NCBI RefSeq assembly: GCF_003058365.1
Contig: NZ_CP028858.1
Location: 1,612,001-1,676,000 of the forward strand
Length of the DNA stretch: 64,000 bases
From: Halococcoides cellulosivorans
Lineage (GTDB): Archaea; Halobacteriota; Halobacteria; Halobacteriales; Haloarculaceae
Reading direction: 5' to 3'
Of the stretch, positions 15,801-48,834 are shown piece after piece (position 1 is the stretch's first letter; each line of letters begins with the position of its first letter). The notes beneath the pieces are model-generated. The model saw only the letters and a program-made list of their open reading frames with translations. It was not told the origin of the DNA and did no database searches. Both the position numbers and the translations under genes were made by a program.

Positions 15801-17135
15801 TCAGATGCGGTCAGCGATCGCGTCTACAGCGTCGGTGGCGACGAAGAAGACGACGTGATCGCCAGCGCGAAACACCGTCTCGCCGCGGGGGGTGACGAGC
15901 TCACCCGCTCGTGCGATCGCCCCGATGACGACGGCCTCGGGGAACCCATCGACCGCCGCCTGGACAGTCTCACCGACGAGTGGACTGTCCGCCTGGAGAG
16001 TCCGTTCGAGGACTTCGCCGCGGTCGTTTTCGATCATCGCGACGTTGTCCGGACGGCCCTCACGGGTGAACCGAACGATCTCCTCGGCCGCCTCCTCGCG
16101 TGGGTCGATCGCCACGTCGACGCCGACCGTCTCGAACAGATCGGCGTACGCGGGCGTCTCGACGATCGCGACCGTCCGCTCGACGCCGACGGTCTCAGCG
16201 AGCAAGGAGACGAGCAGGTTCTTCTCGTCGCTCCCCAGACAGGTTACGACGAGATCGGCGTCCCCGACGTGTTCGTTGTCGAGGAAGGTCCGGTCGGTCC
16301 CGTCGCCCTCGACGACGACGGTCTTCGAGAGCGCTTCGGCCAGTTCGCGCGCCCGGCCCGGATCGCTCTCGACGAGGCGCGGACGGTAGCCTTCCTGTTC
16401 GATGAGGCGGGCGGTCTGGACGCCGACGCTGCTACCGCCGAGGATCACGATGTCGGTCGCCGGTTCGTCGCCCCCGGTCGTCACGTCCGCGGCGAACGCC
16501 CGAATCGAGTCCGGACTGCCGATGACGACGACGCGATCGTCAGCCTGGAACCGGTCGGTCCCCGTCACGATGACGAAATCGTCGCCACGGAAGATCGCCC
16601 CGACGGTCATCGAGTCGTACTGGTCGGCCTCCTCGACGCTACAGCCGACGAGTGGGCTGTCGGCAGGAATCTCGAACTCCGCCATGCGGATGAGTCCACT
16701 CGCGAACGTGTCGACGTCCACCGCGCCCGGAAGTCCGGAGATCCGGAAGATGGCCTCGGCGGTGAGCAGGTCGGTACTAACCATGAAATCGACGCCGTAG
16801 GCGGCCTCGGACTCCTGCCAGGTATAGAGGAGCGACGGGCGTTTCACCCGGGCGACGGTGAACGCGTCGGTGGCCGTCCGGGCCGTCCCGCAGACGACGA
16901 TGTTGACCTCGTCGGCGTCCGTCGCGGCGATGACGAGATCCGCGTCGTCGATGCCGGCTTCCCGAAGCGTGGCGATGTCGGTCCCGTCGCCCTGGATCGC
17001 GAGGACGTCCAGCGAGTAGGTCAGATCGTCCACGCGGTCTGGGTCCTGTTCGACGATCACGACGTGGTGGTCGGGGGCGAGGTTTTCGGCGACGGCGGTC
17101 CCGACCTCGCCGGCCCCGACGATCACGACGCGCAC
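15801..17135 (-). CDS. trkA: TrkA, NAD-binding potassium uptake regulator
   Basis: The 444-residue protein has two tandem RCK units. The first Rossmann motif GAGEVG is at residues 7-12, the second (ILGGSSVGVQTARL) starts near 228, and each is followed by an RCK_C domain (around 145-215 and 365-440). It binds NAD(H) or nucleotides and gates TrkH, encoded just downstream. Full length for the two-RCK form. Confidence 0.93.
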   Translation of the reverse strand: MRVVIVGAGEVGTAVAENLAPDHHVVIVEQDPDRVDDLTYSLDVLAIQGDGTDIATLREAGIDDADLVIAATDADEVNIVVCGTARTATDAFTVARVKRPSLLYTWQESEAAYGVDFMVSTDLLTAEAIFRISGLPGAVDVDTFASGLIRMAEFEIPADSPLVGCSVEEADQYDSMTVGAIFRGDDFVIVTGTDRFQADDRVVVIGSPDSIRAFAADVTTGGDEPATDIVILGGSSVGVQTARLIEQEGYRPRLVESDPGRARELAEALSKTVVVEGDGTDRTFLDNEHVGDADLVVTCLGSDEKNLLVSLLAETVGVERTVAIVETPAYADLFETVGVDVAIDPREEAAEEIVRFTREGRPDNVAMIENDRGEVLERTLQADSPLVGETVQAAVDGFPEAVVIGAIARAGELVTPRGETVFRAGDHVVFFVATDAVDAIADRI

Positions 17136-17248
17136 GAATCGGCCCCCCGAGCGTTCGATCGAGTCACACCGGGAGGTGGCCGAACGGACCCTTGAGTGTT
17201 TCCCAGTCGGAGTGTCTCAAATGTGCTCGGATCGACCAGCCCGTCCGA

Positions 17249-18520
17249 TCAGGAGTGGTCGTCGACCGTCCGCTCGGCGGCGACCTGTGGGGCCCCGTCG
17301 GACCGACGCTCCGCGAGCCAGGCTTTGACGAACGCGCCTTCCTCCCGAAGCGTCCACGCGCCAGTGTTCTCGCCCGTTTCCGCCGTCTCACCGGCCTCGT
17401 CGGTCGCGTCGGCCTCACCCACGAGATCTGGGACGGGCCCGTCGTAGGGCTCGCCGATCGAGTCCGCCGCCTCCGCGTCGACGAACGCGCGGTCGAACAG
17501 CGCCGGGCGCCAGACGGGGTCCGCACACCACGCCATCCAGTGGATCGCATCGTTCGCGTCGGCCCACTCGCGGAACGGTGCAGCGAACTCGGCGGTCGAG
17601 GCGCGGAACAGATCCAGATCGTCCTCGACCTGCCAGCCGAACTCGGTGACGAACAGTGGCACCTCGCTCGCGACGCCCGCCGTGCCCTGGGCGTCGGGGC
17701 CGACCCCCGCCCAGTCGGCCTCGCGGCTGACCTCGTGGCCCGCGTAGATGTGGTACGTGTAGGCCAGATTCTCGCCGTCGAAGCGCTCGACGTAGACCCC
17801 CTCGGGGCTCTGGGACCACGTCGGCGACCCGATCAGGGTGGGGGTCTCGGGGGCGTGCTCGCGGATGGTATCCACCCACGGCTGGGCGACGGCTTTCCAG
17901 TTCCACCAGAGTTCGGCGGCCGCACCCTCCTCGCGGGGATCGGCGCGCATCCCCGGCTCGGTCGGTTCGTTGTACACCTCGTAGAACACGTGGGTCCGGT
18001 CGGCGTACCGCGGCGCGACGGTCTCCCAGAACAGCGTGACCTCCTCCGCGAGCGCGGGGTCGTCCCAGCGCTGCGTGCGATCCTCGGTGTGCCAGTGGCG
18101 ATGGAAATCCACGATGCAGTAGACGCCGTTTTCCTCGCAGCGATCGACGACGGGGTCGAGATGCTCTGCGAGATACTCCTCGAGTTGCTCGCGGGTGAAC
18201 GCGGGGGGTTCGGGCGGGCCAGCCTTCCAGCCCGGCGGGTGTTCACCGACGTCGACCGGTTGGACGGGCACGCGGATCACACGTGGGTGCCAGCCGTGCG
18301 CGCCGCCGGTGAGATACTCGACGGTCTCGATGGCGTCCTTGCCGCGAGCGGCGGCCGTCCGGTTCAGCCGCTTCGGGTCGGCGACGTTCAGCCCGCGCAG
18401 CGTCACCTGGGAGCCCGACGGGTCGACGAGGCGATTGCCCTCGACGTGGAGTCTCGGGGTCGGGATGCCGGGCGAGTGCGAGCGGGTGGGGCGGTCGTCA
18501 GGGTGATTGGAGGGCGTCAC
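17249..18520 (-). CDS. Glycoside hydrolase family 5 cellulase-like protein
   Basis: The 423-residue protein has the GH5 fold markers: RVPV early, DFHRHWHTED at about 138-147, acid/base in VYNEP (Glu185) and nucleophile in VTEFGW (Glu293). Likely substrates are beta-1,4 glucans or mannans. No Sec or Tat signal precedes the domain at the chosen GTG (18520), so it may act inside the cell or be exported by an unseen route. Frames upstream of the GTG add a low-complexity basic sequence. Two ACGATATCGT palindromes lie just upstream. Confidence 0.8.
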   Translation of the reverse strand: MTPSNHPDDRPTRSHSPGIPTPRLHVEGNRLVDPSGSQVTLRGLNVADPKRLNRTAAARGKDAIETVEYLTGGAHGWHPRVIRVPVQPVDVGEHPPGWKAGPPEPPAFTREQLEEYLAEHLDPVVDRCEENGVYCIVDFHRHWHTEDRTQRWDDPALAEEVTLFWETVAPRYADRTHVFYEVYNEPTEPGMRADPREEGAAAELWWNWKAVAQPWVDTIREHAPETPTLIGSPTWSQSPEGVYVERFDGENLAYTYHIYAGHEVSREADWAGVGPDAQGTAGVASEVPLFVTEFGWQVEDDLDLFRASTAEFAAPFREWADANDAIHWMAWCADPVWRPALFDRAFVDAEAADSIGEPYDGPVPDLVGEADATDEAGETAETGENTGAWTLREEGAFVKAWLAERRSDGAPQVAAERTVDDHS

Positions 18521-18535
18521 GCGCTCGTTTTGTCG

Positions 18536-18643
18536 ACGATATCGTGTAAGGCGCTCGCCGAGGGAACAAGATTTGAGATTCGGGGGTGGAGCGGGGGTAA
18601 TATTATGCCTGCGACGATGGTCGTTGCTGGTGAACGATATCGT
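18536..18643. promoter_or_regulatory. Paired ACGATATCGT palindromes upstream of GH5
   Basis: The perfect 10-bp palindrome ACGATATCGT occurs at 18536-18545 and 18634-18643, 16 and 114 bases before the GH5 start. I saw no other exact copy in the window. Two identical dyads before one gene suggest a regulator operator. Confidence 0.4.
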
Positions 18644-18858
18644 GGTTCCTGAAATTGGCGAGTAGATGATCACTCATGCTCGGAATAGGGAGCATCGTCT
18701 CGGTCAGGCCGGTTTCGTCACGCTGATCTGGAGCGACGCGTTCGTGCGCACGGAGTGGGGCAACAGAATCTACAACGGTATATCGACGCGAGCCACCAAT
18801 CGTAGCCAGGCAGCCACTATAAATACCATATTAAATGCACATCATATAACCACTAGAA

Positions 18859-18864
18859 TTTAAG
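18859..18864 (+). promoter_or_regulatory. TATA-like box for the island genes
   Basis: TTTAAG lies 24-29 bases before the ATG at 18888, the spacing of a leaderless haloarchaeal promoter, and supports transcription of the short ORF and the gene after it. Confidence 0.35.
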
Positions 18865-18887
18865 CCACATAGAGAGACACAATACCC

Positions 18888-18965
18888 ATGGGAGATAAAT
18901 ATACAAGCAAGGCAAAAATGAAGATAGGGAAAATAATAGCAGCAAACACCATTCGAAGCGATTAA
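18888..18965 (+). CDS. Short lysine-rich ORF (25 residues) in the AT-rich island
   Basis: ATG to TAA encodes MGDKYTSKAKMKIGKIIAAN and then TIRSD, a basic peptide rich in Lys and Ile, unlike the acidic proteins of this genome. It ends 15 bases before the next gene on the strand and has a TATA-like box at leaderless spacing. It may be a leader peptide, a small membrane-active peptide or a chance frame. Confidence 0.3.
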   Translation: MGDKYTSKAKMKIGKIIAANTIRSD

Positions 18966-18980
18966 AAGTGGATAAATTTA

Positions 18981-19424
18981 ATGCAGTATTTATATGAGAA
19001 TAATAGAAAAATAATTTTCGATTATGAGGACGGGAGACCAGTGTGGCCAAAAGATGAAGAGATTAATTGGGACTTGGAAATTACTGATGAAGAGATTAAA
19101 CAAGAATTCGTATCATTACAACAATCAAACCTAATAGACCGAAAATACCCCGACAATAATGGCGAATACAAAGACGAGAGACCAAATAATAGTCCAGGAA
19201 CCGTAAAGTTTGAGCTTACTCAAAAAGGTATAGAAATAGCGCACCAGCATAACCAATCAGAATTGAATGTGTTTAGCGATATGACAATATTGCTTCTGAC
19301 GGTCGGATTATTAACCACAAATATTGCAAGTATCGTGACTACCGAATGGGTCGAAGCGACAATAATTATTGTAACCTTATTGGGCGTACTAATCGGACTT
19401 GTTATAATAACTTCTATAACATAG
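18981..19424 (+). CDS. AT-rich gene: winged-helix-like domain plus two membrane segments
   Basis: The 147-residue product has an N-terminal soluble region (1-95) with wing-like VKFELTQKGIEIAHQHN, then two hydrophobic segments (about 103-118 and 122-145). Codon use is AT-rich and Lys/Asn/Ile-rich, clearly unlike neighbours, so it was probably acquired by transfer. The N-terminal half resembles winged-helix proteins where LTQKGxxIA closes the fold. No family function is recognised. Possibly a membrane-tethered sensor or defence component. Confidence 0.6.
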   Translation: MQYLYENNRKIIFDYEDGRPVWPKDEEINWDLEITDEEIKQEFVSLQQSNLIDRKYPDNNGEYKDERPNNSPGTVKFELTQKGIEIAHQHNQSELNVFSDMTILLLTVGLLTTNIASIVTTEWVEATIIIVTLLGVLIGLVIITSIT

Positions 19425-19457
19425 AATCCTACATCCTCTCGTTATATGTGGATATAG

Positions 19458-19721
19458 ACTTCATCCAACAACGGCCCGATTACCACCCTGCACAGTCAAT
19501 TTGCAGCTGTCGTTGTTCCCCACCGGCGCATCAATCCCCAGTACAACTCGCTCGATGAATCGCTGCCTGACCCAGTGGAAAGCGTGATCGTCTCGCCCGC
19601 TGGGGCGCTCCCCGGCGACACGGTGTCGGTGTTCCTGTTTCGCAAAGGCCCACCTCTGTGGGTTGCATTCACGCCCAGTCGTGATTCTCCCACCCCTCGT
19701 AGTGCTTTAGCCGGCTCCTGA
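19458..19721 (+). pseudogene. 5'-truncated protein fragment
   Basis: An open frame follows a TAG at 19455 and encodes a protein-like run including FAAVVVPHRRINPQYNSLDE and VSVFLFRKGPPLWVAF, but no start codon precedes it. Hydrophobic and charged residues are ordered as in a real domain. I do not recognise the family. It overlaps the tail of the convergent 105-residue gene, so it looks like a remnant left by a rearrangement at this island. Confidence 0.3.
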
Positions 19722-19986
19722 TCTGAAACGGTTCCAACCCACAGTCGTGATAGAGCACTTCGGCCAACCGGCCAAACGCACTGTTGTTGAGTTCGATCCC
19801 GCGATTCCCCCGGTCGGTAATGTACCCTGCCGATCGGAGCATTTCGTAGGCATCGCGTGCGTCGGGATATTCGTGATCCCTGATCGCTGCGATTGAGAGC
19901 AGGGCCTCCTGATTAATCGGTGATCCCCACCCGTGTCTCGAAACCATCGCGGCCAGGAGAGCACATTTCACCGACGGCTTTCGCAT
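19669..19986 (-). CDS. Small conserved-looking protein, probable DNA-binding
   Basis: The 105-residue product starts MRKPSVKCALLAAMVSRHGW and contains DARDAYEMLRSAGYITDRGN then RGIELNNSAFGRLAEVLYHD, which reads as a winged-helix or similar small fold. It is divergent from another small HTH gene across a 93-base spacer that contains TATA-like sequence for both. Such pairs occur in haloarchaeal accessory regions. Molecular role unknown. Confidence 0.55.
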   Translation of the reverse strand: MRKPSVKCALLAAMVSRHGWGSPINQEALLSIAAIRDHEYPDARDAYEMLRSAGYITDRGNRGIELNNSAFGRLAEVLYHDCGLEPFQIRSRLKHYEGWENHDWA

Positions 19987-20050
19987 ACTCCGCTCTATTA
20001 TCGCCCACTACATAAGCCCCGTCAATCAGCGTTAACACGAATGGAAGTGA

Positions 20051-20056
20051 TTATAC
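20051..20056 (+). promoter_or_regulatory. TATA-like box for the 20080 HTH gene
   Basis: TTATAC lies 24-29 bases before the ATG at 20080, matching leaderless promoter spacing. Confidence 0.45.
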
Positions 20057-20079
20057 ACACCGGTCACCTCTATTCGAGC

Positions 20080-20424
20080 ATGAGCGAATCCACACCCAGA
20101 GACAGCGCGTCCGACCAGGACGTAAAACAGGCGCGTCTCGACCACCCGAGCGGCCTGCTTCACCTCACCCAGCACGAGAGCGTCCCGATCCTCCTCGACG
20201 CGATTCTCGACCTGCCGCCCGGCCGGGAGTTCAACAAGAGCGAGTTCGCGGACCACGCGGGCGTCACCCGCCAGACGGTCGGCACGTACATCGACCTCCT
20301 GCTCGACGTCGACATCGTCGAGGAGGTCCCGCAGACGACGCCCCAGCGGTATCGAGTGACCGAGAGCGATGTCGTCGAAGCGCTGTACGAGTTGAACAGT
20401 GCGATCAACGCGGCTGGCGAGTGA
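20080..20424 (+). CDS. Small helix-turn-helix protein
   Basis: The 114-residue protein has a central HTH (REFNKSEFADHAGVTRQTVGT, about 48-68) followed by a wing-like YIDLLLDVDIVEEVPQ and YRVTESDVVEALYELN. Start ATG at 20080 has a TATA-like box at leaderless spacing; the frame upstream runs through the promoter region and is rejected. It is divergent from the 105-residue gene and is probably its regulator. Confidence 0.7.
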   Translation: MSESTPRDSASDQDVKQARLDHPSGLLHLTQHESVPILLDAILDLPPGREFNKSEFADHAGVTRQTVGTYIDLLLDVDIVEEVPQTTPQRYRVTESDVVEALYELNSAINAAGE

Positions 20425-20472
20425 GATCGTCACGTACTCCGACGAGACGCGGGATCTAACAGGTCCATCCTG

Positions 20473-20592
20473 CATACGGCGAGCGGAGCGAGCCGTTTCA
20501 CTGAGCGCGAACGCAGTGAGCGCTCAGGTGTTTTTGGTCCAGATTTTTGCGAGGAGGGTTCGCGAAGCGAACCCTCCGACGTAAAAAGGTGG
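20473..20592 (-). repeat. Structured tRNA-flanking element, copy 1
   Basis: In the sense of the tRNA it begins about 5 bases after tRNA-Gln with CCACC and a T5 run (20583-20587). It contains a perfect 11-bp hairpin with triloop (20553-20563/20567-20577), the conserved stretch around TCTGGACCAAAAA, and an 8-bp hairpin CTGAGCGC/GCGCTCAG with loop GAACGCAGTGA (read on plus, 20501-20527). A GGC...GCC segment closes the far end. A second copy at 48546-48664 shares the backbone but has different stem sequences. Confidence 0.85.
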
Positions 20593-20597
20593 TCTAG

Positions 20598-20670
20598 TAG
20601 TCCCGGGAGGATTCGAACCTCCGTCGTTGCCCCCAGAAGGCAACAGGATTGGCCACTACCCCACGGGACT
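20598..20670 (-). tRNA. tRNA-Gln (CUG)
   Basis: A 73-base minus-strand cloverleaf: acceptor AGTCCCG/CGGGACT, T arm GGAGGTTCGAATCCTCC, anticodon stem TTGCC/GGCAA with loop TTCTGGG, anticodon CTG. CCA is not encoded and there is no intron. A TTTTGTAAC box lies about 20-30 bases upstream. A T5 run 10 bases downstream is a likely terminator. Confidence 0.93.
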
Positions 20671-20762
20671 GCATTCGACAGTCGGACATCGGGTTACAAA
20701 ACGGTGTCGCTTCGGGCGCTCGAATCCCAACGAGTATCGCCGTCGATCGCCCACCGGCGGGC

Positions 20763-21275
20763 ATGCTGGAGTCCGCGATCGACATCGTGTTCGGGACCAG
20801 TCTGACCCACCGGGTCGTGGTGCTCACGGCGATCGCCGTCTACGCCGTGTGGTTCGTCCGCGACGCCCCGACGGCGTGGGCGAACCTGCGTGACGGCGCC
20901 TGGACCTTCGGCCGACTGTTCACGCTGATCGTCGCGGCAATGGCACTCGCGAGTGCGATCGGCGCGCTCGTCCCGGTTGCGGCCGTCGAGCGCACGCTCG
21001 GCGCGACCGCCGGGCCGTCGGGTGGCGTCCTCGCGGGCGTCCTCGGCGGCCTCCTGCCGGGCGGGCCGTACGCGGTCTATCCCGTGATCGACAGCGTGGG
21101 GGCCGCCGGTGGCGGCGTCGCGGCCGTGCTGGCGCTGGCGGTCGGCTACGGTGCGATCGGGGTCGGACGCATTCCCTACGGCCTGGTCTTTTTCGAGTCG
21201 CGGATCGTCGCGGCGCGCGTGCTCGCGGGCCTGGCGATCGCGATCACCGCCGGCGCGGGGGTGTATCTGCTGTGA
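20763..21275 (+). CDS. Half-size permease, first of a tandem pair
   Basis: The 170-residue membrane protein has about four to five hydrophobic segments and the central motif GGLLPGGPYAVYPVIDSVGA, typical of the putative permease (DUF318/ArsP-like) superfamily, which normally has two such halves in one protein. Later GYGAIGVGRIPYGLVFFESR is also conserved in its neighbour. The TGA overlaps the GTG of the next gene (GTGA), so the two subunits are probably made together and form a heterodimer. Substrate unknown. Confidence 0.75.
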   Translation: MLESAIDIVFGTSLTHRVVVLTAIAVYAVWFVRDAPTAWANLRDGAWTFGRLFTLIVAAMALASAIGALVPVAAVERTLGATAGPSGGVLAGVLGGLLPGGPYAVYPVIDSVGAAGGGVAAVLALAVGYGAIGVGRIPYGLVFFESRIVAARVLAGLAIAITAGAGVYLL

Positions 21276-46154: not shown

Positions 46155-46879
46155 CTGGCGCGGATCGCGAGCCCCATTCGCTCTCGACGGGCCACACCGT
46201 CGGAGTGCCACTCGACCTGGAGGCGACGATCACGGGCGCCGTCTTCGCTGCGCCGCTCGACGACCTTCGAGCAATGGTTCCCGACGGGCTCCGACCGGTC
46301 AGACTGACACCACGCCGTGGTGGAATCACGATCCTCTCGGTCGACTACCACCGGATCGGGGACGACGCGATGGCACCGTACAACGAGGTGAGCATCCAGA
46401 TTCCGGCCACTCGGGAGGGCTCGCGGACCGTGCCCGTCGTCTCCGGACTGCTCGGAGCCACCGGTGGGTACGTCTGGGCGATGCCGGTGACGACCGAGCC
46501 GGCGAAGGCACTCGGCCGAGAGGTCTGGGGGTATCCGAAGACGGTCGCGGACATCGCGATCGATCACGGCGAGCGGGCGACCCAGACGACCGTGTCCCTC
46601 GACGGTGATCGCGTGCTGACGATGGACGTCACTCGACCGCCGGCCGTCCCGCTCCGCGTGCGTGGTCACACCTATACCGAACTCGACGGCCGACTGGTCC
46701 GGGAGGACACGGCGATCCGTGGACGCGTCGGTGCGTGGCCGCTGAGCCAGGGCGCGACCGTCGAGGTCGGATCGCGTGGGTTCGCGAGGCAGGTGCCCGA
46801 GGAGTGGTTCGATGGGCGAGCACTGCTGCGACTTGCGGCCGACTGTCGGTTCCGGATCGAGGCTCCCCGGCCTGTGTGA
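46151..46879 (+). CDS. Acetoacetate decarboxylase family protein
   Basis: The 242-residue protein follows the ADC fold, with GREVWGYPKTVADI carrying the Schiff-base Lys, and an N-terminal AVFAAPLDDLRAMVPDG. ADC-like proteins may decarboxylate acetoacetate or handle other beta-keto acids; the second catalytic Lys-like residue pair of true ADC is not certain. Coupled to the SDR by ATGA overlap. Together with bdhA elsewhere this hints at ketone-body-type metabolism. Confidence 0.78.
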   Translation: MTGADREPHSLSTGHTVGVPLDLEATITGAVFAAPLDDLRAMVPDGLRPVRLTPRRGGITILSVDYHRIGDDAMAPYNEVSIQIPATREGSRTVPVVSGLLGATGGYVWAMPVTTEPAKALGREVWGYPKTVADIAIDHGERATQTTVSLDGDRVLTMDVTRPPAVPLRVRGHTYTELDGRLVREDTAIRGRVGAWPLSQGATVEVGSRGFARQVPEEWFDGRALLRLAADCRFRIEAPRPV

Positions 46880-47017
46880 CCTGGGGCCGACGACGCGGAT
46901 CTGGAGGCGGCGATCGACGACGCGAGCAGCGGAGATCCGAGCCCGCCCGACGACCGCGATCCACTGGCCCGCGATCACGTCGAGACGGTTCGACGCGGGG
47001 CCCGGGACGATGCCTGA
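46880..47017 (+). pseudogene. Remnant of an upstream partner of the PIN gene
   Basis: After the ADC stop, the same frame stays open for 45 codons with no start codon (acidic and Pro/Asp-rich: AAIDDASSGDPSPPDDRDPL, then RGARDDA) and ends overlapping the PIN start. The position and 8-base overlap are those of an antitoxin tail, but the N-terminal DNA-binding half is missing. It is probably a decayed antitoxin, fused in position to the ADC stop. Confidence 0.35.
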
Positions 47018-47471
47018 CGGACCGTATCTGTTCGACGTGGGCGTGACGACGCTGGCCCACGCCGGGACACCGGTCAGCGACGTGGCGCTCTCCTGGGTGC
47101 GTCGCGCGATCGAGGGCGAGATCGACGCCGTCGTCCCGACGGCCTCGCTCGTCGGCGCGCACCACGTCCTCACGTCGGTCAACGGGTTTACGAACGAGGA
47201 CGCGTCGACGCTGCTGAGCAGATTGCTCGACGCCCAGCGGATCCACTGGCACGAATCGACGAGTGTGAGCAGCGTCAGAGCGGGATTCGATCGTGCGAGT
47301 GCGGCGACCGTCGAGGGGTGGAACGCGTTGTACGCGCAGATCGCCGCCGAGGAGGGCGTCGAGACGGTGTTGACCCTCGACGACGACTTCGAGCGGTTCG
47401 AGGAGTTCGACGTGGAGGTCATCCTGTCGCGCGAGGAGTTCCGAACGGTGGAGGAGTATTTGGGGTACTGA
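47010..47471 (+). CDS. PIN domain protein (VapC-like), possibly degenerate
   Basis: The 153-residue protein has a PIN-like start YLFDVGVTTLAHAG with Asp9 and a C-terminal VLTLDDDFERFEEF with the late Asp cluster. The helix expected to hold the second acid reads AVVPTASLVGAHHVL without Glu, so nuclease activity is uncertain. It overlaps an antitoxin-like remnant upstream. It may be a toxin that lost its partner and part of its active site. Confidence 0.6.
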   Translation: MPDGPYLFDVGVTTLAHAGTPVSDVALSWVRRAIEGEIDAVVPTASLVGAHHVLTSVNGFTNEDASTLLSRLLDAQRIHWHESTSVSSVRAGFDRASAATVEGWNALYAQIAAEEGVETVLTLDDDFERFEEFDVEVILSREEFRTVEEYLGY

Positions 47472-47915
47472 TCGGGGTGGTTCCTTGTTTACCCGTTTAT
47501 CGACAATAACGAGCCCACGTATTCCGATCGGCGTCTGATTATTTATCAGATATTCTCGTTTACCCATTTTCAACCTTACACGTGCACTCGAAGCGCTGAC
47601 AGCGATCGTTAGCTTTCCTCCATGGGGTAGTGTTCTTGTAATGGATACAATTGGCTGTGTCTTCTTTGAAAGCCCTCGCCAGTTTCGGTCCCGCGACTCG
47701 CTGCGCGCTTCGGGCGCTACACGCCCTGCAGTGCTTACTTCGTCGGGGTTCCCGAAACTGGCTCGCCCTTTCGATCCGCCAGGATTTGGTTTGTTTTCAA
47801 CATGAAACAAGCCTTTGGACGGTAGTTATCTGAACATCGTCTTCAGAGAGTACCACGAGTGGATCTCATAGTCCAGGCTCTCCCTTTGCTACAATAAAAT
47901 GTGGTGAAGAATATG
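47472..47915. other. AT-rich gene-free spacer at island edge
   Basis: These 444 bases contain no convincing gene. They include GTTTACCC twice, an AT-rich dyad CTGAT/ATCAG, and an inverted repeat (47668-47772). Composition is clearly lower in GC than the flanks. Confidence 0.6.
47668..47772. repeat. 105-base element bounded by imperfect 21-bp inverted repeats
   Basis: The left arm 47668-47688 and right arm 47752-47772 are inverted and share GAAAG and GCCAGTTTCGG (16 of 21 positions). The interior contains GGGCG/CGCCC and CGCGACTCGCTGCGCG dyads. There is no room for a transposase. It resembles a small palindromic or miniature element. Confidence 0.6.
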
Positions 47916-48338
47916 TCAGACCCCGTTTTCGTGTTCTATCTCAAAAACCAAGACTCGACGGCCATCCTGTTGCTCGAACCGATAATCAATGACATCAACT
48001 AATCCTTGGTACTCCCACATTCCATCCCCAGATTCTTGATAGAAGAAATGGACTGGTACCGCTGACGAGATCGCATCAATTAATACGGAGTTCCCCGGCG
48101 AAGATTCACTCTGATCACCCGACAGACCTTCCCCAATATACTCGAATCTCCCTTCAGTCACAGAATCATTATACGGCCCGCTTTCGTTGGCGAAGAGTAG
48201 CACATAGCGTCTGTCATTGCTGTCACGTCGTGGGTTGATGCCGGAAATTTGGTAGCCAAAACCAGTGTCGAAAGCATCTTCGATGTCATCCTAGTTATAT
48301 TCATCTCCGATATGGATGCCCGAAGGAGGTGTGCGCAT
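47916..48338 (-). pseudogene. SRA-like domain protein interrupted by an amber codon
   Basis: Starting at ATG 48338 the frame reads MRTPPSGIHIGDEYN, TAG at 48293-48291, then DDIEDAFDTGFGYQISGINP and onward to VFEIEHENGV. Sequence on both sides of the TAG is continuous in sense. The run RYVLLFANESGPYND, FEYIGEGLSGDQ and WEYQGLVDVIDYRF resembles SRA-like modified-DNA-binding domains of McrA-type HNH endonucleases. No HNH follows. TATAAA lies 25-30 bases upstream. A downstream ATG in-frame start would give only 95 residues. Confidence 0.55.
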
Positions 48339-48362
48339 ACCGTCGGTAGTATGGCCAAATTG

Positions 48363-48368
48363 TATAAA
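48363..48368 (-). promoter_or_regulatory. TATA-like box for the SRA-like gene
   Basis: TTTATA on the minus strand is 25-30 bases before the ATG at 48338, the leaderless spacing, and supports that ATG as the original start. Confidence 0.45.
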
Positions 48369-48545
48369 CTTGTGGAATAATAAAATTTGATTTAATTTAG
48401 ATGACGAGACGGTACTGACAGCCCCACAACAACACATATCATCAACTGACCATCCAATAGTTGCTCGATTTTGGACTGGTGGAACTTGCTTTTGTATCTC
48501 TTTAAATCCGGCTGGTCGAATCAATTTCGACGGTGCTCTTGTGCG

Positions 48546-48664
48546 CATACGGCGGCCTTCGGCCGCCGTTTCACTGAGCGCGAACGCAGTGAGCGCTCAG
48601 GTCTTTTTGGTCCAGATTTTTCGAGGAGCGGTCGCCGAAGGCGACCCGACGACGAAAAAGGTGG
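48546..48664 (-). repeat. Structured tRNA-flanking element, copy 2
   Basis: It matches copy 1 in order: CCACC with T5, a triloop hairpin (48630-48636/48640-48646, GGTCGCC/GGCGACC), the TCTGGACCAAAAA stretch, CTGAGCGC/GCGCTCAG with loop GAACGCAGTGA (48574-48600), and a terminal dyad GGCGGCC/GGCCGCC (48551-48567). Stem sequences in the first and last hairpins differ from copy 1 yet stay complementary. Confidence 0.85.
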
Positions 48665-48761: not shown

Positions 48762-48834
48762 TGGGTCCGGGCGGATTCGAACCGCCGACCCCTTCCTTGT
48801 AAGGGAAGTGTCATAACCACTAGACCACGGACCC
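48762..48834 (-). tRNA. tRNA-Val (UAC)
   Basis: A 73-base minus-strand cloverleaf: acceptor GGGTCCG/CGGACCC, T arm GGCGGTTCGAATCCGCC, anticodon stem CTTCC/GGAAG with loop CTTACAA, anticodon TAC. No CCA or intron. The DUF192 gene starts 61 bases beyond its 5' end on the other strand. Confidence 0.93.

Follow-up and report, generated by a model that had tools for sequence, protein, structure and literature searches.

One reading frame, not two genes: a probably damaged member of a haloarchaeal membrane winged-helix family in an AT-rich island of Halococcoides cellulosivorans

Introduction

Does a short AT-rich island in a GC-rich archaeal chromosome hold two foreign genes, or one gene that has been interrupted? 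This question is raised by a locus of Halococcoides cellulosivorans, which lies in a stretch of 64 kb that was analysed as a whole (hereafter the window). An initial annotation described the island as a foreign bicistron, in which a basic 25-residue ORF with its own TATA box is followed by a gene for a 147-residue, membrane-tethered winged-helix protein and then by a truncated gene, and it proposed possible immunity, toxin or signalling roles. Among the checks it named for this reading, the neighbourhoods of homologues should be compared, and absence of the small ORF from relatives that keep the larger gene would speak against it. The apparent bicistron proves to be a single frame that a stop codon interrupts, and the larger gene leads to a scattered haloarchaeal family of membrane winged-helix proteins, which have no Pfam or NCBIfam model above cutoff and whose genes tend to be AT-rich and often lie near recombinases.

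Results

The two open frames of the island share one reading frame

The genome is a single contig of 2.72 Mb with a completeness of 99.97%. The sharp compositional shift first noticed at this locus is borne out (Table 1), and the lowest-GC 600-base segment of the window begins at 18851, at a GC of 0.355 (mean 0.661, SD 0.046). The 147-residue ORF has exactly the boundaries originally given and is longer than chance would provide (when the island was dinucleotide-shuffled 500 times, 147 codons were reached once); the basic 25-residue ORF (the mini-ORF) exists as well. Both open frames, like the island that holds them, are real, yet they are no bicistron. Both ORFs lie in one frame, which the initial annotation missed when it took them as separate cistrons. 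From 18870 to 19427 this frame reads as a stop, RDTIP, MGDKYTSKAKMKIGKIIAANTIRSD, a second stop, KWINL and then MQYLYENN..., so that a single TAA and five codons split the mini-ORF (ATG 18888) from the larger ORF (ATG 18981).

Table 1. Features in and around the AT-rich island (window coordinates).
Feature	Position	Strand	Remarks
GH5 glycoside hydrolase	17249-18673	-	Pfam Cellulase, E 1e-29
AT-rich island	18816-19430		GC 0.346; surrounding region about 0.66-0.68
TATA-like string TTTAAG, candidate promoter	18859-18864	+	centre ~26 nt 5' of ATG 18888; read from the sequence
Mini-ORF, 25 codons, TAA stop included in coordinates	18888-18965	+	same frame as the 147-aa ORF
In-frame TAA	18963-18965	+	aligns with a conserved Pro column of family N-termini
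Five codons, K W I N L	18966-18980	+	align with the family N-terminus; outside the called ORF
147-aa ORF	18981-19424	+	predicted winged helix, first half of helix 1 missing; C-terminal two-helix membrane hairpin
74-codon open frame between island and next gene	19497-19718	+	weak matches, best non-self E 0.004
Conserved 105-aa gene, intact	19669-19986	-	kept in relatives
HTH regulator	20083-20424	+	conserved divergent neighbour of the 105-aa gene

An inverted pair of 19 nt (18818-18836 and 18976-18994; 16 of 19 positions matching, a number reached in one of 200 shuffles) surrounds the mini-ORF. As an insertion signature it was rejected: the match does not extend beyond 19 nt, and with gaps allowed it scores 29, less than any of the ten top scores shown from 300 shuffles. 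Because its second arm falls within conserved codons, the pair is probably due to chance. For structured RNA, the sole Rfam match over 17000-21000 is a tRNA at 20598-20670.

The larger ORF belongs to a scattered haloarchaeal family

Searches with the 147-residue protein alone returned only the protein itself among 58 near relatives (1/58), and the 152-codon frame that starts behind the TAA found no match in genome contigs; Halococcoides is the sole member of its genus among the genomes compared. Queried with the read-through frame, 27 of 391 genomes of the class matched at E<=0.1, and several of these matches start at residues 21-27, across the stop. A ten-row profile extended this to 65 of the 391 genomes at E<=1e-3 and gave, at E below 1e-9, 31 matches in 30 genomes, ten of them the profile's own rows, Halococcoides included. 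At the level of the phylum, matches at E<=1e-6 came from 12 of 392 genomes; eight of these lie outside the order of Halococcoides, with matches that cover part of the profile only. The family is thus patchily distributed among haloarchaeal genomes; it occurs, for example, in Haloarcula japonica, Halolamina pelagica, Halolamina salifodinae and strain HArc-gm2. Its members, as trimmed by script, have 108-221 residues, start with M-x-x-P-D-W-A-x-x-L-x-x-L-Y and end with two hydrophobic segments. No model of Pfam or NCBIfam scored above cutoff for the family (single members gave scattered matches, the best in NCBIfam at E 5.3e-4), PHROGs gave no convincing model (scattered single-member matches, best E 2.1e-5), and literature searches turned up no paper recognisable as dealing with the family among those listed. 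As a side observation, genomes from another family of the same phylum (L113-L116) match the profile partially, roughly at positions 30-143, some of them with several copies per genome; judging from these matches, the same architecture possibly occurs outside haloarchaea.

Homology of the Halococcoides gene continues upstream to the TAA

To score the gene, a profile of 21 members was built from 29 loci without the Halococcoides sequence; L035, L049, L050, L051, L053, L056, L058 and L059 were left out. Against it, the Halococcoides protein reaches 60.5 bits from ATG 18981, 66.4 bits from 18966 and 67.1 bits as the whole read-through, a significant similarity along the domain that makes it a member of the family. 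The five codons contribute 5.9 bits; among 3000 random five-codon prefixes free of stops, 8 reached the same 66.4 bits. Given this gain, the bases between TAA and ATG once belonged to the coding sequence. The mini-ORF part adds almost nothing to the score (66.4 to 67.1 bits).

In the alignment, the start Met of the family coincides with codon 23 of the read-through frame, its Pro coincides with the TAA, and the Halococcoides copy has no ATG, GTG or TTG at that start position. A near-invariant Trp of the family corresponds to codon 18969-18971, upstream of the called start. Whereas the other members begin with M-x-x-P-D-W, and 27 of the 29 family loci keep the Trp inside the ORF, no such N-terminus lies within the open frame here: the Trp is present, but a TAA precedes it and the called ORF excludes it, for which reason the gene is classed as a damaged member. 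In length, domain order and most conserved columns it resembles its relatives. Four of 14 conserved columns are altered, compared with none to two in 23 of 26 other members and five in the remaining three (L051, L058 and L059 were left out of this count). On balance, the island is probably one gene and not two, namely a horizontally acquired family member with a damaged 5' end.

Two relatives also look damaged: the first 40 codons of L035 include no ATG, GTG, TTG or CTG, and L051 has an internal TAA. At ~1280-1480 of L035, the 5' end of this gene without a start codon adjoins an inverted GAAGCGGGAGA/TCTCCCGCTTC pair that resembles the end of an insertion element.

A predicted winged helix is followed by a membrane hairpin

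The 152-codon frame was modelled from a 23-row alignment (mean pLDDT 85.3, pTM 0.64). In the model, helix 1 spans residues 2-11 of the frame from 18966 and is followed by a winged-helix core and two long helices (86-123 and 128-151); ATG 18981 corresponds to residue 6, halfway along the first helix. Hydropathy finds two hydrophobic C-terminal segments in the 147-residue protein, in accordance with the modelled two-helix membrane hairpin. A profile search matched MarR-family ZitR chains at E 3.6e-4. Foldseek gave no PDB match at E<=0.001 (best 4.4e-3, NadR) and assigned a probability of 1.00 to several MarR, PadR or HxlR-like structures, and the best match in BFVD is an uncharacterised archaeal-virus protein (E 4e-4 over 87 residues). 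Profile and model together point to a MarR-like winged helix at the level of the fold only. The membrane-tethered winged-helix protein first proposed here is thereby supported, through the MarR-family match, the predicted fold and hydropathy.

The winged-helix domain is what the protein has in common with MarR-family regulators (ZitR, NadR, QsrR and others) in profile and Foldseek comparisons. The matched PDB chains are regulators of ~140-170 residues, whereas the C-terminal part of the Halococcoides protein is a membrane hairpin instead. Furthermore, acidic residues outnumber basic ones at the equivalent of the recognition helix in 20 of 23 family rows, although halophilic acidity alone may explain this. 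As proof against DNA binding the acidity was rejected, since by eye the same part of the neighbouring HTH gene looks acidic as well and the feature does not discriminate.

Family genes tend to be AT-rich and often lie near recombinases

In 28 of 29 loci the family gene is richer in AT than its flanks. Of 20 family loci of 7-13.5 kb, 7 contain tyrosine-recombinase clusters (L084, L088, L090, L091, L094, L096 and L099), as against none of ten loci around an unrelated gene, the 105-aa gene, that served for comparison; neighbouring genes were called with a home-made scoring script, and the integrase clusters were confirmed by Pfam with one member each. Other neighbours encode Replic_Relax, Cdc6-lid ATPase and D12 methyltransferase proteins as well as ordinary metabolic functions. 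The comparison of homologue neighbourhoods thus produced recombinases and no conserved partner, as no partner gene is common to more than five of the 20 loci. Around the Halococcoides copy, the cluster comparison found none of these recombinases between 12001 and 27000. AT bias and the vicinity of recombinases fit cargo of mobile elements, which is no proof for the Halococcoides copy itself. Its AT-richness and the patchy distribution of the family suggest that the gene was acquired horizontally, so that of the foreign bicistron an AT-rich, probably foreign gene is retained and the second cistron is not.

Carriage by known replicons was considered and rejected: the 147-residue protein had no match in viral contigs, one relative had none in phages, and neither the read-through frame of the window nor one relative had any in plasmids. 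A clean empty site was rejected as well. One genome (G001, locus L080) has a GH5 homologue at a distance of ~60 bases from the 105-aa gene; it has the opposite orientation, however, and the locus is no simple empty site.

The gene behind the island is intact. Contrary to the initial annotation, which called it truncated, most relatives of the 105-aa gene align over all or nearly all 105 residues at 45-71% identity, and 10 of 10 relative loci have the same HTH gene next to it; in one relative (G018) it is split over two frames. The divergent pair (19669-20424), together in all ten of these loci yet patchy (12 of 58 genomes), is perhaps a regulatory or mobile pair, and the 105-aa protein has a weak Cdc6-lid match (E 0.005). 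Judged by its weak matches, the 74-codon frame between the island and this pair might be a gene remnant.

The mini-ORF and alternative readings of the stop codon

When the 165 bases 5' of the larger ORF were shuffled 2000 times, 12.1% of the shuffles contained an ATG-started ORF of at least 25 codons, and the mini-ORF is within chance expectation, not clearly longer. Of 382 genomes, its own is the sole one with a match to its peptide at E<=0.1 (the remaining 381 have none), and 112 loci gave no convincing match (best E 0.63); a query of 25 residues is a weak probe, which renders this absence supportive without being proof. The mini-ORF is most likely a chance frame in AT-rich DNA or a leftover N-terminal end or extension of the larger gene.

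The strongest competitor of a damaged 5' end, which we regard as unlikely while still giving it some weight, is that the short protein from ATG 18981 is functional. A leaderless mini-ORF would be translated and terminated at the TAA, and reinitiation 15 nt downstream would make the mini-ORF a leader that sets the level of the protein. The TATA-like string ~26 nt before ATG 18888 suits this scheme, and the frame 3' of the TAA is open with its hydropathy retained. As for the promoter that the initial annotation assigned to the mini-ORF, the string and its spacing stand, but a strict TTWAWA scan of 18790-18985 picks only TTAAAA at 18962 and misses it, and such strings are expected anyway in a stretch of 32% GC. 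According to the relevant passages of PMC4983044, leaderless mRNAs make up 72% of the protein-coding transcripts of Haloferax volcanii, and for this species the passages of PMC10666635 on reinitiation give 40-60% of native efficiency across a gap of 13-14 nt and nearly zero at 22-23 nt. The 15 nt found here can be set beside the 13-14 nt tolerated in that species; they are marginal because of the fall to near zero at 22-23 nt in those passages. Relatives, however, have no counterpart of the mini-ORF, and a start at 18981 would lose half of helix 1 together with the near-invariant Trp.

Somewhat less probable again is a gene that is intact in the living strain, with the TAA as a sequencing or assembly error or a very recent mutation of the clone, and with a true start at 18888 that would add an N-terminal extension of ~27 residues. 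The shared frame has no other stop, and the spacing of the TATA-like string is appropriate for this start too. A few relatives (L045, L047, L050 and L051) are indeed extended at the N-terminus, which places the Trp at residues 12-22 and not 6-9, in a set whose start codons were placed by script at the nearest upstream ATG, which favours short N-termini. Yet the mini-ORF part is similar to no relative, the assembly is of one contig and almost complete, and a shared frame has a prior chance of one in three.

A true bicistron, in which the basic peptide would be an independent small protein that serves the membrane winged-helix protein, e.g. as its antitoxin or as a modulator, is very improbable. 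The mini-ORF has an ATG, basic charge and the TATA-like string at leaderless spacing; against these stand the frequency of comparable ORFs in shuffles, the homology of the larger ORF, which reaches the TAA and turns the gap into former coding sequence, and the lack of a conserved partner around the 20 family loci. The mini-ORF is absent from the 29 family loci examined, and by the very comparison that the initial annotation had named, this speaks against the bicistron. An independent small-peptide gene was rejected on chance frequency and on absence in genomes and loci, and neither the family loci nor the 382 genomes revealed a conserved small partner of toxin-antitoxin or immunity type.

We would give equally little credence to a TAA kept on purpose, where readthrough or termination-reinitiation would yield a long (~178-residue) and a short (147-residue) form of the regulator, with helix 1 complete in the long form only. 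To our knowledge, a translational switch of this kind has not been described for haloarchaea.

Least credible of all is a SLATT-type defence effector with the hairpin as a pore-forming effector gated by the winged helix. SLATT domains likewise have two membrane helices near the C-terminus, and some relatives match weakly (PADLOC RTasSLATT in 4 of 10 family rows, best E 3.6e-4; 2 of 10 rows match NCBIfam SLATT_5, best E 0.009), but the Halococcoides protein matches no family at E<=0.05 in PADLOC or E<=0.1 in NCBIfam, the matches begin just before the hairpin and cover it with the adjoining helices, where hydrophobicity alone could explain them, and none of 20 neighbour proteins scanned is a nucleotide-sensing or defence partner. 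A role in immunity or signalling, or as a toxin, accordingly received no positive support.

Discussion

The damaged 5' end, which we favour, implies the following history. The Halococcoides lineage would have acquired the family gene horizontally, and its 5' end would then have been damaged in such a way that the helix 1 codons and the Trp persist directly behind a TAA, with no start codon at the family position. The ORF from ATG 18981 would be what stays open downstream, and the mini-ORF either a chance frame or what is left of an N-terminal extension of this gene. The copy is probably decaying and would have lost its function. Several observations speak against this: a Met is present at 18981, a single defect is visible, and the frame stays open for 152 codons behind the TAA, which would be unlikely in a gene long dead at 35% GC. 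Neither 58 near relatives nor genome contigs provided a close relative that would date the TAA as new or old.

Intact relatives probably act as membrane-anchored regulators, with the N-terminal winged helix presumably in the cytosol, and may regulate the mobile elements with which they travel. Archaeal 'dark matter islands', as characterised in passages of PMC4158269, combine narrowly spread, fast-evolving genes with integrases and virus-associated wHTH regulators. The Halococcoides island differs from them in holding a single gene, with no integrase between 12001 and 27000 by cluster comparison, and those passages do not name the family. More than the damaged Halococcoides copy, it is this family that is the object of interest and merits a model and a functional test.

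Elsewhere in the window, a second AT-rich patch (47400-48600; GC about 0.45-0.51) with few long ORFs adjoins a tRNA-Val (48762-48834) and is a possible integration remnant. The 231-aa ORF beside it (46776-47471) looks PIN-domain-like by eye.
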